64,000 bases of DNA. It comes from Fibrobacter sp. UWB16. Its GTDB lineage: Bacteria > Fibrobacterota > Fibrobacteria > Fibrobacterales > Fibrobacteraceae. Of this stretch, positions 44,533-49,353 are shown one piece after another (position 1 is the first letter of the stretch; each line of letters starts with the position of its first letter). The notes below the pieces were generated by a model. It saw nothing but the letters and a program-made list of their open reading frames with translations. It was not told the DNA's origin and did not search any database. Location: NCBI RefSeq assembly GCF_900215325.1, contig NZ_OCMS01000001.1, forward strand, positions 1-64,000, written 5' to 3'. The position numbers and the translations under genes were made by a program.

Positions 44533-45024
44533 TTACTTACCGCTCATGATGGCGGCGAGGTCGGCACCACTCAAGTTCGTCTTTTCGTTAAGGGCGGCAA
44601 CGATTGCGGTAAGCGACTTTTGGCAAGCCATCATGAGGTTATAAACTTGTTCGACAACGTTTGTTTCGGCAAGCTGGTAGTAATAGCAAGCCGCCTGAAA
44701 GCTTTGGTAATCGGGATCGCTCCTGTAAAGTTCCATCGGAAGTTCTTTCATAACAGTGTCGAGATCGCAAGCGAAATTTTTGCGGATTAAAAAGTCCGAC
44801 ATATGGCCCGCAATGGCAATGTGGGCAGCACCATCGAGCGAGCTCCCGGGCATGCGCGTGGCACTCGGCTTTTCCTTGGAATTGTTGATTCTGACGTAAT
44901 CAATTTGGCGTTTGAACAGGAAAGCGATTAGAGCGTGGCCCGCCTCGTGGCGGCAAAGTTTTTCATATTCCTGTTCACCGAAAAAATCAATTAAGGTTTC
45001 GCGAGTTAATGTTTGTTCTGACAT
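44533..45024 (-). CDS. Small HEAGH metalloprotein, M41-peptidase-like
   Basis: 163 aa. Contains CRHEAGHALIAFLFKR, the zinc-binding HExxH with the EAGH context of FtsH (M41) peptidases, then PGSSLDGAAHIAIAGHMSDF resembling the M41 helix with the third ligand region. No AAA domain or membrane segment. It may be a stand-alone peptidase or an inactive relative. The gene overlaps the upstream hydrolase gene by 19 nt. Confidence 0.65.
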   Translation of the reverse strand: MSEQTLTRETLIDFFGEQEYEKLCRHEAGHALIAFLFKRQIDYVRINNSKEKPSATRMPGSSLDGAAHIAIAGHMSDFLIRKNFACDLDTVMKELPMELYRSDPDYQSFQAACYYYQLAETNVVEQVYNLMMACQKSLTAIVAALNEKTNLSGADLAAIMSGK

Positions 45025-46630: not shown

Positions 46631-46673
46631 TATAAAAAAAATCCGCCCCTGCGGTGAAGCAGGAAGCGGATTT
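46631..46673 (-). terminator. Terminator of the radical SAM gene; left copy of a 43-bp direct repeat
   Basis: On the minus strand the stem AAATCCGC..GCGGATTT with inner CCTGC/GCAGG and a T7 tail is a strong Rho-independent terminator. The sequence is identical, base for base, to 49311-49353. Confidence 0.9.
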
Positions 46674-46696: not shown

Positions 46697-48157
46697 TTAC
46701 TTGCTTGCGTATGCAGCTTTTGCAGCCATGTCAGATGTCATATATCTGAGATCTTGTATAAGATTCGGATCCTGACCTCCGGACAGCGAAACGGCCTCTT
46801 GCATAACGCGCAAGCCTTCTTCAGCCTGACCGAGCCGATACAAGGCCAAAGCTCGACCACCCATAGCATAAGTGTCCATGCTATTGATGTTCAAAGCCTT
46901 CTCGTTTGCTTCAAGGCACGATTCATAGTTGCCGCACATGAATTCGCTGTAGCCAATAGCCCTGTAAACATCGGCATTATTGGGATCCAGTTCCTGCGCA
47001 CGTTTCAAAGCAAAGGAGGCTTCTTGGTAGTTGCCCTGAGGAATCAACGCTTCGGCCAGCTTGAGCAAAGCAGAAGCACTGTCGCACTTGCCATACTTTG
47101 TTTCCTTTTCCTTTAGAGAAAGGTTGTATGCGCAATATTCATTTTCCTCATAAATGCTACCCTTCATCGTGAGACGCGTATTCGGGCAGCCGCCAAGGCA
47201 CTTGGAACCATAAATGCACTTTTTGCAAGAACCAGAAAGTTTGTCCTTAGTCATCTGGCGACGCCACAAAAATGCGTTTTTATCTTCCCAAATTTCACGC
47301 AACTTTCTTTCGCGGATATTCCCTTCGATGAATTCCTTGGAACGAATCGAAGTACAACCCAAGATATCACCATTATGCAAAATCCCGAAACCACGAATTC
47401 CCGCATTGCAGCCATCCCACAAGGAATAACCATTTGACTTGTAGGACATACGCCTTGTTTCAAGATCCTTCATTGAATAGTATCCAATACAATCCGCAGG
47501 ATAAATATCGATCCTACCCTCTTTTGCCGTATCGTAACAAAAATCAATGATATCCCTGACCTGTCTCGGTTCAAGGAGCCAATCAGGGCGTTCCTTCAAA
47601 TTGCCCATAGGCAAACCAAGTTGAACCTGCCACGTGTCAACGCCCATGCGGATAAGCTCTTCCTTCAATTCCGGAAGATTATCCATATTCTGCTTCGTGA
47701 TAGTCGTGACGGCACCGGTCTTTATTCCCAATTCCTTCATTGCGGCGAAAGCTTGCCTAGCATGTTCAAAGGCACCTTTTTTCCTGATTTTATCATGGAT
47801 TTCAGGCGTTCCGTCAATGCTAATCGCAACCGTGGCAATACCATTCTCTTTTAACTTTTTTGCCATCTTTGCGTCAAGGAGCCAACCGTTCGTGATCATA
47901 TTCACGATAACGCCATTACCAGAAAGACGTTTCACCAATTCAGGCGTATCTTGTCTCGTAAGAGGTTCGCCTCCAGACAAGGTAATCCATTTCAGTCCAA
48001 TATCAGCAATCTGATCACACAAATCAAGAGCTTCCTCGGTGCTCAATTGTCCCGGGAGAGCGCCCTCACAAGAAGAACCACAATGCCCACAGCGAAAGTT
48101 GCAGCCCATCGTTACTTCCCAGACTGCAGTGATGGGCTGATACCCAATATTTGCCAT
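46697..48157 (-). CDS. Radical SAM/SPASM peptide-maturase-like enzyme with C-terminal TPRs
   Basis: 486 aa from the ATG at 48157 (AGAGG 4-5 nt upstream). Residues 15-215: radical SAM barrel with the Cys19-x3-Cys23-x2-Cys26 cluster motif (MGCNFRCGHC), GGE at 62-64, and AISIDGTPEIHDKIRKKGAF. Residues 250-345: SPASM domain with Cys 250, 268, 311, 314, 320, 324 and 342 (CKKCIYGSKCLGGCPNTR), enough for two auxiliary 4Fe-4S clusters. Residues about 355-470: TPR-like repeats (GNYQEASFALKRAQELDPNN, ADVYRAIGYSEFMCG), which could dock a repeat-containing peptide. It lies 69 nt downstream of the repeat-protein gene and shares its RBS style. SPASM enzymes typically modify peptides by C-S or C-C cross-linking; the exact reaction is unknown. 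No N-terminal RRE-like domain is obvious. Confidence 0.88.
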   Translation of the reverse strand: MANIGYQPITAVWEVTMGCNFRCGHCGSSCEGALPGQLSTEEALDLCDQIADIGLKWITLSGGEPLTRQDTPELVKRLSGNGVIVNMITNGWLLDAKMAKKLKENGIATVAISIDGTPEIHDKIRKKGAFEHARQAFAAMKELGIKTGAVTTITKQNMDNLPELKEELIRMGVDTWQVQLGLPMGNLKERPDWLLEPRQVRDIIDFCYDTAKEGRIDIYPADCIGYYSMKDLETRRMSYKSNGYSLWDGCNAGIRGFGILHNGDILGCTSIRSKEFIEGNIRERKLREIWEDKNAFLWRRQMTKDKLSGSCKKCIYGSKCLGGCPNTRLTMKGSIYEENEYCAYNLSLKEKETKYGKCDSASALLKLAEALIPQGNYQEASFALKRAQELDPNNADVYRAIGYSEFMCGNYESCLEANEKALNINSMDTYAMGGRALALYRLGQAEEGLRVMQEAVSLSGGQDPNLIQDLRYMTSDMAAKAAYASK

Positions 48158-48170
48158 AAAAACCTCTAAG

Positions 48171-48201
48171 CAGCCTGCCAGCATTCAAGGCCAGCAGGCT
48201 G
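48171..48201 (-). promoter_or_regulatory. Intercistronic hairpin between precursor and maturase genes
   Basis: CAGCCTGC (48194-48201) / GCAGGCTG (48171-48178) perfect 8-bp stem with 15-nt loop, between stop and Shine-Dalgarno. Not followed by a T run, so more likely mRNA processing, stabilising or partial attenuation, giving more precursor than enzyme. Confidence 0.65.
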
Positions 48202-48226: not shown

Positions 48227-49165
48227 TTAACAGTCAGACTTCTGCGAATCGCACTTGAAGCCGTACATAAAAGCAGCGTCTTTTTTCGTTGCTGCATCTT
48301 GAACGCCGCACGGATAGCCGTACTTCAAGGCGGCATCCTGTACTCCGCAGGGATAACCATACTTCAAAGCGACGTCATTTGTACAGTTCTTGTAACCGTA
48401 TGCCATGGCAGCTTCCCTGTTCGATGCAGCATCCTGAACACCGCAAGGATAGCCATACTTCATCAAAGGCAAATCGCAAGGATAACCGTACTTCATCAAA
48501 GGAGCATCATTTGTGCCGCAGGGGTAACCGTACTTCAAAGCGGCTTCTCGATTTGGAGATGCGTCCTGAGCTCCACAAGGATAGCCATACTTCATCAAGG
48601 GTGCATCATTTACACCACAAGGATACCCATACTTCACTACAGGTGCTTCGCTTGTATTGCAAGGATAACCGTACTTCATCAAGGGTGCATCTTGAACGCC
48701 ACAGGGATAGCCATACTTCATCAGGGGAGCATCCTGAACTCCACAAGGATAGCCATACTTCACAACGGCTTCTTGCGAGCCGAGAACAAGGCCATAGGGC
48801 ATTGCAGGGCCGGCAACAGCTCTGATTGTAGCGTCAGAGTTTTCGCTAAATTTTGCAAATTCATCAGAATCGCTCGGAATTACGTTCAACAGCACCGTAT
48901 GCGTCTTTTTCGTAGCGGACATATCCGTAAAGTTAATCAACGTGAATTCAAGTTCAGACTTGTCTTCCGTTGCAGAAACAGCTCCAAACCAGAATCTCTG
49001 GATAACAGGAGCAACCCCTGTTGCTGTTGAGATTGTCTCTGTACTCAGCAGAGCGATGCCCTGCGGAAGTTTGGTCAGAGTCCAACCATAATTTGTGGAA
49101 CCGAACATTGATTGCAGTTCAATCGAGAAGGATTGACCCTGTAATACAACCATTTCTTTTGCCAT
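48227..49165 (-). CDS. Multicore RiPP-precursor-like protein: chagasin-like domain plus KYGYPCG repeats
   Basis: 312 aa. Residues 1-95 resemble a chagasin/I42 cysteine-protease-inhibitor fold (VLQGQSFSIELQSMFGSTN, YGWTLTKLPQGIALLS, FWFGAVSATE, LEFTLINF, THTVLLNVI). Residues 96-122 are a linker. From 123 to 312 the protein is tandem repeats of 11-19 aa: ten have exact KYGYPC (first at 136-141), usually followed by GVQDAPLM or variants, three by a longer form with NREAA or KKDAA, and two degenerate ones AYGYKNC (255-261) and MYGFKC (300-305). Each repeat has one Cys; total about 12 core Cys plus the final Cys312. No signal peptide. RBS AGAGG. This is the upstream partner of the radical SAM enzyme. 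Confidence 0.8.
   Translation of the reverse strand: MAKEMVVLQGQSFSIELQSMFGSTNYGWTLTKLPQGIALLSTETISTATGVAPVIQRFWFGAVSATEDKSELEFTLINFTDMSATKKTHTVLLNVIPSDSDEFAKFSENSDATIRAVAGPAMPYGLVLGSQEAVVKYGYPCGVQDAPLMKYGYPCGVQDAPLMKYGYPCNTSEAPVVKYGYPCGVNDAPLMKYGYPCGAQDASPNREAALKYGYPCGTNDAPLMKYGYPCDLPLMKYGYPCGVQDAASNREAAMAYGYKNCTNDVALKYGYPCGVQDAALKYGYPCGVQDAATKKDAAFMYGFKCDSQKSDC
48230..48760 (-). repeat. KYGYPCG-coding tandem repeat array
   Basis: About twelve DNA units, basic length 42 nt (14 codons), with in-frame variants of 33, 39 and 57 nt. Codons differ between copies (for example GGATAGCC versus GGATAACC in the GYP codons) while KYGYPC is kept, which suggests selection at protein level. Confidence 0.85.
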
Positions 49166-49310: not shown

Positions 49311-49353
49311 TATAAAAAAAATCCGCCCCTGCGGTGAAGCAGGAAGCGGATTT
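49311..49353 (-). terminator. Terminator of purL; right copy of the 43-bp direct repeat
   Basis: Identical to 46631-46673. It ends purL transcription and insulates the cassette downstream. Confidence 0.9.

Follow-up and report, generated by a model that had tools for sequence, protein, structure and literature searches.

RiPP enzymes often read the leaders of their substrates through an RRE, and in RRE-dependent systems the leader-bearing precursor adjoins its modifying enzyme. Long leaders with a rigid structured region are known as well, such as the Nif11 leaders, and among radical SAM products the PapA/PapB-type ranthipeptide bears the name freyrasin. One report (PMC10858898) describes most RiPP leaders as short and lacking structure, and the proteusins, with their nitrile-hydratase-like leaders, as having a long leader that includes a rigid structured region. 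The substrate of PapB has six Cys-x3-Asp/Glu motifs, according to the available portion of PMC9413430. Chagasin/I42 proteins are free inhibitors, and their inhibitor loops are given in the accessible text of PMC2607524 as NPTTG in L2, GxGG in L4 and RPW/F in L6.

We analysed a 64,000-nucleotide stretch of DNA from Fibrobacter sp. UWB16 (hereafter, the window), in which a first-pass annotation had described positions 48880-49165 as a chagasin/I42-like domain serving as the leader of a repeat precursor. The annotated positions cover the 5' third of a precursor gene on the minus strand, which has the following features:

48227..49165, minus strand: precursor gene of 312 aa, composed of a chagasin-fold leader, a linker and KYGYPC-type repeats (open reading frame; orthologues in 10/167 Fibrobacterota genomes and in other phyla)
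48875..49165, minus strand: leader domain, residues 1-97, a chagasin/I42-like beta sandwich (AlphaFold2 model and VIA-align; PF09394 below cut-off)
49082..49102, minus strand: GSTNYGW tip loop, residues 22-28, at the place of chagasin L2 (column entropy; hhalign)
48839..48874, minus strand: helix in the linker at residues 98-109 (SDSDEFAKFSEN), with conservation that extends across phyla (entropy; helix at 101-108 in the AlphaFold2 model)
48230..48760, minus strand: repeat (core) region from residue 136, with 10 KYGYPC units and degenerate YG units

All of the leader segments that had been quoted (GQSFSIELQ, GSTNYGW, FWFGAV, LEF and THTVLLNV) are present in the open reading frame, and the domain end at about residue 96-97 (about 48875) agrees with the boundary of 48880. 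The fold of the leader, its pairing with repeats and an enzyme, the loss of the inhibitor motifs and the transfer of the cassette were established by computation, and we favour, with somewhat better than even confidence, the reading that the locus is a two-gene, horizontally moving cassette of RiPP type in which the folded leader serves as the docking handle of the enzyme. Neither Pfam nor NCBIfam has a model that names the precursor or such a leader family, and the family came to light only through its repeats and its fold.

For the fold, AlphaFold2 was run on residues 1-96 of the leader with an alignment of 24 diverse leaders, which gave a model with a mean pLDDT of 89.9 and a pTM of 0.80. 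When this model was compared with PDB structures by VIA-align, the top eight chains were exclusively of the chagasin family (Z 8.1-10.6, rmsd 2.0-2.5 over 91-92 residues), so that the predicted fold bears out the chagasin-type assignment: EhICP2 (Z 10.6, rmsd 2.3), chagasin (Z 10.1, rmsd 2.0), amebosin (Z 9.5, rmsd 2.4) and PbICP-C (Z 8.1, rmsd 2.5) were all superimposed over 91 residues. The first chain outside the family is a peptidylarginine deiminase (Z 7.8, rmsd 2.9 over 88), and the margin to this outsider is narrow for PbICP-C, while chagasin and EhICP2 stand clearly above it. Foldseek with the same model also ranked EhICP2 first (E 2.2e-4). An earlier model, built on nine near relatives, had a pLDDT of 68.1; chagasin-family chains again occupied rows 1-7 in VIA-align but were found only at ranks 16 and 19 in plain Foldseek.

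At the level of sequence, PF09394 is the best Pfam family for residues 1-95 (E 0.0011), with 19.7 bits against a gathering score of 27.2 that is not reached, and it matches 7/24 leaders at E <= 1, with a best E of 6.3e-4. A search of the leader sequence profile against the PDB gave no chagasin but photosystem fragments alone, at E 0.47 and worse. The hhalign comparison of the leaders with seven true I42 domains is also weak (probability 10%, E 0.0031 for one pair, 38 columns), and therefore the kinship with I42 rests on the predicted fold and the sub-threshold Pfam match; the likeness may also have arisen by convergence. In that alignment, GSTNYGW is paired with S-x-GYxW of the true I42 domains, and the core T-x-Y-x-W of chagasin L2 is retained by most leaders.

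While the leader resembles the chagasin/I42 proteins (PF09394; EhICP2, amebosin and PbICP-C) in fold over 91 residues, it differs from these free inhibitors in being the N-terminal part of a repeat precursor and in lacking NPTTG, GxGG and RPW/F. The L2 motif P[ST][TS]G[YF]xW was found in 0/30 leaders, a loop of the GSTNYGW type standing in its place, and the L4 motif GxGG and the L6 motif RP[WFY] were likewise found in 0/30. Across 24 leaders, the mean column entropy of the GSTNYGW tip (residues 22-28) is 0.60 bits versus 1.55 for residues 2-96, whereas the loops at the L4 place (46-53; 2.21 bits) and the L6 place (79-83; 2.15 bits), as located by the strand order of the AlphaFold2 model, are among the most variable parts and are short in that model. 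Of the three inhibitor loop positions, therefore, the alignment has the GSTNYGW tip as the only conserved one. Since the L2 place is conserved without the inhibitor motif and L4 and L6 vary, the tip has probably been kept for something other than protease inhibition.

These results bear on the suggestion in the first-pass annotation that the domain might inhibit a host or processing cysteine protease. A working inhibitor that shields the precursor or blocks such a protease would suit the chagasin fold itself, and elsewhere in the phylum I42 domains do precede papain-like proteases. We nonetheless regard this reading as very improbable and rejected the inhibitor as a candidate on account of the absent motifs and the variability of the loops: none of the three motifs is kept in any of the 30 leaders, the Pfam cut-off for I42 is missed, no signal peptide was seen, and the 13 loci inspected by eye share no neighbouring cysteine protease that could be a partner. 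Judged by its sequence, the leader is not an I42 inhibitor, and protease inhibition by it is unlikely. The signal peptide was likewise looked for by eye, and on that basis we propose that the precursor is cytosolic. As for the I42 domains just mentioned, five I42-like domains of one Fibrobacterota genome (G060) are N-terminal to papain-like proteases, whose type was assigned by eye (L061, L062 and L064-L066).

The second gene of the cassette lies downstream of the precursor on the same strand:

46697..48157, minus strand: gene of the TPR-tailed radical SAM/SPASM enzyme; translation from the ATG at 48157 gives 486 aa (Pfam; alignment of starts)
46754..47077, minus strand: TPR tail, spanning residues 370-477 of the enzyme's 495-aa open reading frame (Pfam TPR_2, E 3.6e-8; tail aligned in 22/22 full-length enzymes)

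The open reading frame of the enzyme opens at 48184 (495 aa), but the starts of its relatives align with the ATG at 48157, which leaves a gap of about 70 bases between the two genes. Radical_SAM (E 2e-27) and SPASM (E 2.9e-8) both score over their Pfam cut-offs in this protein, in addition to TPR_2 (E 3.6e-8). The cysteines C19, C23 and C26 of the CxxxCxxC motif are invariant in 22/22 full-length enzymes, as are C250, C268, C311, C314, C320, C324 and C342, which match the seven-Cys SPASM pattern. The radical SAM domain begins at residue 23, Pfam finds no RRE-type (PqqD-like) domain at E <= 10, and the TPR tail is hence the sole added domain; in the Bacteroides enzyme, Pfam gives no TPR at E <= 0.01, yet the tail aligns. 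Among the best 25 of 94 matching NCBIfam models, none scores over its cut-off, the best of the matches listed being TIGR04103 with 229 bits against a cut-off of 725. The closest radical SAM proteins outside the family are 38% (G091) and 41% (G076) identical, and no repeat precursor was found near either gene in the slices examined.

The occurrence of the two genes was followed by searches from both ends of the precursor. Genome contigs were scanned with a DNA pattern that encodes two KYG[YF]P units and ignores the leader; it returned 29 stretches, 24 of which are true repeat precursors, whereas the other five (L070, L074, L078, L082 and L092) are chance matches and were excluded. The 24 precursors belong to Fibrobacter, Butyrivibrio, Kineothrix and other Lachnospiraceae, Clostridium/Clostridiales bins, Bacteroides and a Spirochaetaceae bin, and 21 of them were taken into the alignment of leaders, with the near copies L081, L086 and L094 omitted. 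All 24 begin with the leader domain (by eye) and pair with a TPR-tailed radical SAM/SPASM enzyme, which upholds the claim that this domain leads a repeat precursor; the enzyme relative was beside 23 of the 24 at once, and the last was found on extending its contig. These enzymes are 53-98% identical to the window enzyme in whole-length matches that include the TPR region. Even where the gene order is reversed and the enzyme lies upstream, namely in Bacteroides (L072 and L094) and in L076, the pairing is kept. The DNA pattern requires the first unit to contain AAG, and further members of the family have therefore probably escaped it.

Searches with the leader profile, which are blind to the repeats, gave the same picture. 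Close enzyme orthologues (at least 84% identity) occur in 10/167 Fibrobacterota genomes, beyond which the next relatives drop to 41% and less, and the leader profile matches the same 10/167 genomes. It also matches 4/397 genomes of the family of Butyrivibrio hungatei and 2/393 genomes of the order of Bacteroides; three of these six were already known, and the three new ones again have KYGYP repeats and the enzyme. In none of the genomes searched (167, 397 and 393) was the domain found on another kind of protein. Two matches (G010 and G048) proved to be antisense frames of other genes. The leader gave no match in viral sequences or in searches of plasmid and phage proteins, and one viral match to the DNA pattern (L096) is due to chance. 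Since all 24 precursors found without the leader carry it and the leader searches return only enzyme-adjacent precursors, we conclude that the cassettes represent a widespread and as yet unnamed family of radical-SAM peptides with an immunoglobulin-like leader, present in gut bacteria of four distant phyla. In their joint conservation, the genes for precursor and enzyme behave as a RiPP precursor/enzyme pair does.

What, then, is the domain for? Most likely, the leader domain together with the conserved helix that follows it is the docking handle of the enzyme; the suggestion in the first-pass annotation that the domain could serve as recognition element for the TPR tail or the enzyme is thus plausible. 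The first gene encodes a folded domain of chagasin-type immunoglobulin-like architecture, followed by a short conserved helix and the YG units, and the second a radical SAM/SPASM enzyme that has a TPR tail but lacks an RRE domain. The enzyme would hold the GSTNYGW tip and/or the SDSxEFxxYSEN helix, the TPR tail probably being the part that grips the leader, and the flexible repeats would be fed successively to the radical SAM site. Across 22 leader/enzyme pairs, leader distances correlate with the distances of the TPR tail (r 0.94) and of the radical SAM core (r 0.92); the partial correlation, given here without a significance test, is 0.47 for leader and TPR tail versus 0.14 for leader and radical SAM core. 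These values hint at a contact between leader and TPR tail, although fast-evolving parts of an operon can correlate without any contact. The leader frame is under purifying selection, with a dN/dS of 0.06-0.20 in the 10 pairs with a finite estimate (11 were compared and one was saturated); the values are 0.01-0.05 for the radical SAM core (11/11 pairs) and 0.02-0.15 for the TPR tail (9/11 pairs).

The linker also invites a different explanation, in which the domain is a cap for solubility or stability and the enzyme reads solely the linker helix or KYGYP itself. Residues 98-108 have a mean entropy of 1.19 bits in 24 leaders, with the helix consensus SDSxEFxxYSEN, and are thus well conserved across phyla, and the KYG motifs persist in every precursor. 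In a proteusin, moreover, the structured part of the leader was dispensable and it was the disordered part that bound the enzyme, as reported in the accessible text of PMC10858898. A mere cap, on the other hand, would not need the degree of conservation seen in GSTNYGW, which is the most conserved of the domain stretches compared (the 0.60 bits given above), and the domain would not be expected to stay off other kinds of protein, as it does in the genomes searched; we consider such a cap unlikely. Still less probable, in our estimate, is that the entire repeat protein, once modified, is itself the product, perhaps as a cross-linked or metal-binding protein rich in Tyr, Lys and Cys, and that the domain is a permanent part of it. 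The purifying selection on the domain would fit, as would the size of the repeat region, in which a chain can have as many as 20 YG units and 18 tail Cys. In addition, the 13 loci inspected by eye share neither an exporter nor a maturation protease, which makes the release of a small peptide conjectural. Against this last point, maturation proteases and exporters are often encoded away from the RiPP locus.

With the domain as docking handle, the locus would depart from the described systems in several respects. As in the RRE-dependent systems, a leader-bearing precursor adjoins its modifying enzyme, but the window enzyme has no RRE domain by Pfam and has a TPR tail added; unlike the leaders of proteusins and Nif11 precursors, the structured region here is an immunoglobulin-like beta sandwich. 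The cassette apparently relies on a handle of immunoglobulin-like fold and on an enzyme with a TPR tail, and should docking take place at the domain, it would be a portable tag that steers a radical SAM enzyme to repeat substrates. It is conceivable, at somewhat less than an even chance, that this constitutes a new RiPP class, in which the leader is an immunoglobulin-type domain recruited from the chagasin fold and devoid of the inhibitor loops, a TPR tail replaces the RRE as the reader and lets one enzyme process up to 20 units per chain, and the cassette has spread between phyla of gut bacteria. In the literature searched, chagasin was not found together with a leader peptide, and a search combining chagasin, radical SAM and RiPP had no chagasin among the matches listed. 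TPR is absent from the main text of a survey of RREs, as far as the accessible part of that article goes (PMC12710340). The motifs KYGYP and YGYPC led to a mussel adhesion transcriptome and to no bacterial peptides, within a search whose scope excluded the subscription atlases of radical SAM RiPPs, which may list the family.

The repeats themselves suggest what the enzyme might do. In the window, the precursor has 10 KYGYPC units, with Asp or Glu at the position Cys+4 in 9/10, besides the degenerate YG units. The 30 precursors together have 237 KYG[YF]P units, and Cys is next in 203 of them; a chain has 4-20 YG units, mostly of the form KYGYPC-x3-D/E. In 25 precursors, after five near copies had been dropped (L041, L081, L083, L086 and L094), Asp or Glu stands at Cys+4 for 144/239 tail Cys versus 21.8 +/- 4.3 in shuffled tails, a control that overstates independence, the repeats within a precursor being duplicates. 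The ranthipeptides of PapA/PapB likewise combine a radical SAM enzyme with many Cys-x3-Asp/Glu motifs, of which the window precursor has nine; they differ in that here KYGYP is fixed ahead of the Cys, the leader is folded, the enzyme is TPR-tailed and the thioether is putative.

By this analogy, a thioether from Cys to Asp/Glu, as made by PapB, is our leading guess, held tentatively and at less than even confidence. Four precursors (L067, L069, L081 and L109) count against a universal KYGYPC-x3-D thioether, since their KYG[YF]P never has Cys next; their Cys lie near acidic residues elsewhere. Tyr-Gly is in every unit, as the definition of a unit requires, and no precursor is without KYG[YF]P. 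We hold a modification or bond inside Tyr-Gly-Tyr/Phe to be almost as likely as the thioether, and some other chemistry to be somewhat less likely than either. In the precursor at 919-1839 of L108, a second type of repeat, NQPFLRNSCAPD, follows the KYGYP units. A Pfam match of the window precursor to XylR_N (PF06505, E 7.6e-10) spans the repeat-unit stretch 148-173 and was set aside as a chance likeness summed over the repeats; such likeness of the repeats (48230-48760), probably fortuitous, could mislead automatic annotation.

Both genes of the window are flanked by a direct repeat:

46631..46673, no strand assigned: distal copy of a 43-bp terminator-like direct repeat, following the enzyme gene (identical copies flank the cassette)
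49311..49353, no strand assigned: proximal copy of the same 43-bp direct repeat, located between purL and the precursor (a single copy at the empty site of sister genomes)

The two copies in the window are identical, and the motif (with at most 3 mismatches) occurs in 16/80 genomes of the genus. In 11 of these 16, one copy follows purL; ten have no cassette, and the remaining one (G006) has it on another contig. The genes next to the single copy in G004, G132 and G027 are relatives of the hydrolase gene and the presumably RhuM-like gene that lie beyond the cassette in the window. The cassette thus moves, the empty site with one copy of the 43-bp repeat being present in sister genomes. In the enzyme tree, furthermore, the enzymes of Butyrivibrio hungatei, 80-82% identical to that of the window, are nested with those of Fibrobacter in a group that has full support (100/100), which points to transfer of the cassette between phyla in one direction or the other.

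Several observations concern individual loci. One Spirochaetaceae bin has two diverged cassettes (L069 and L081), in which other genes lie between precursor and enzyme, and the enzyme copy of L069 has an in-frame stop ahead of the TPR tail. Near the cassette, the window encodes at 44533-45024 a protein of 163 aa with a HEAGH motif as in zinc proteases; it is also found near the empty site and therefore lies outside the cassette. In two loci (L073, 3655-5708, and L095, 1701-3195), genes for a LytTR-like response regulator and a membrane kinase-like protein, identified by eye, are divergent from the precursor, and these neighbours could reflect regulation by a signal peptide.
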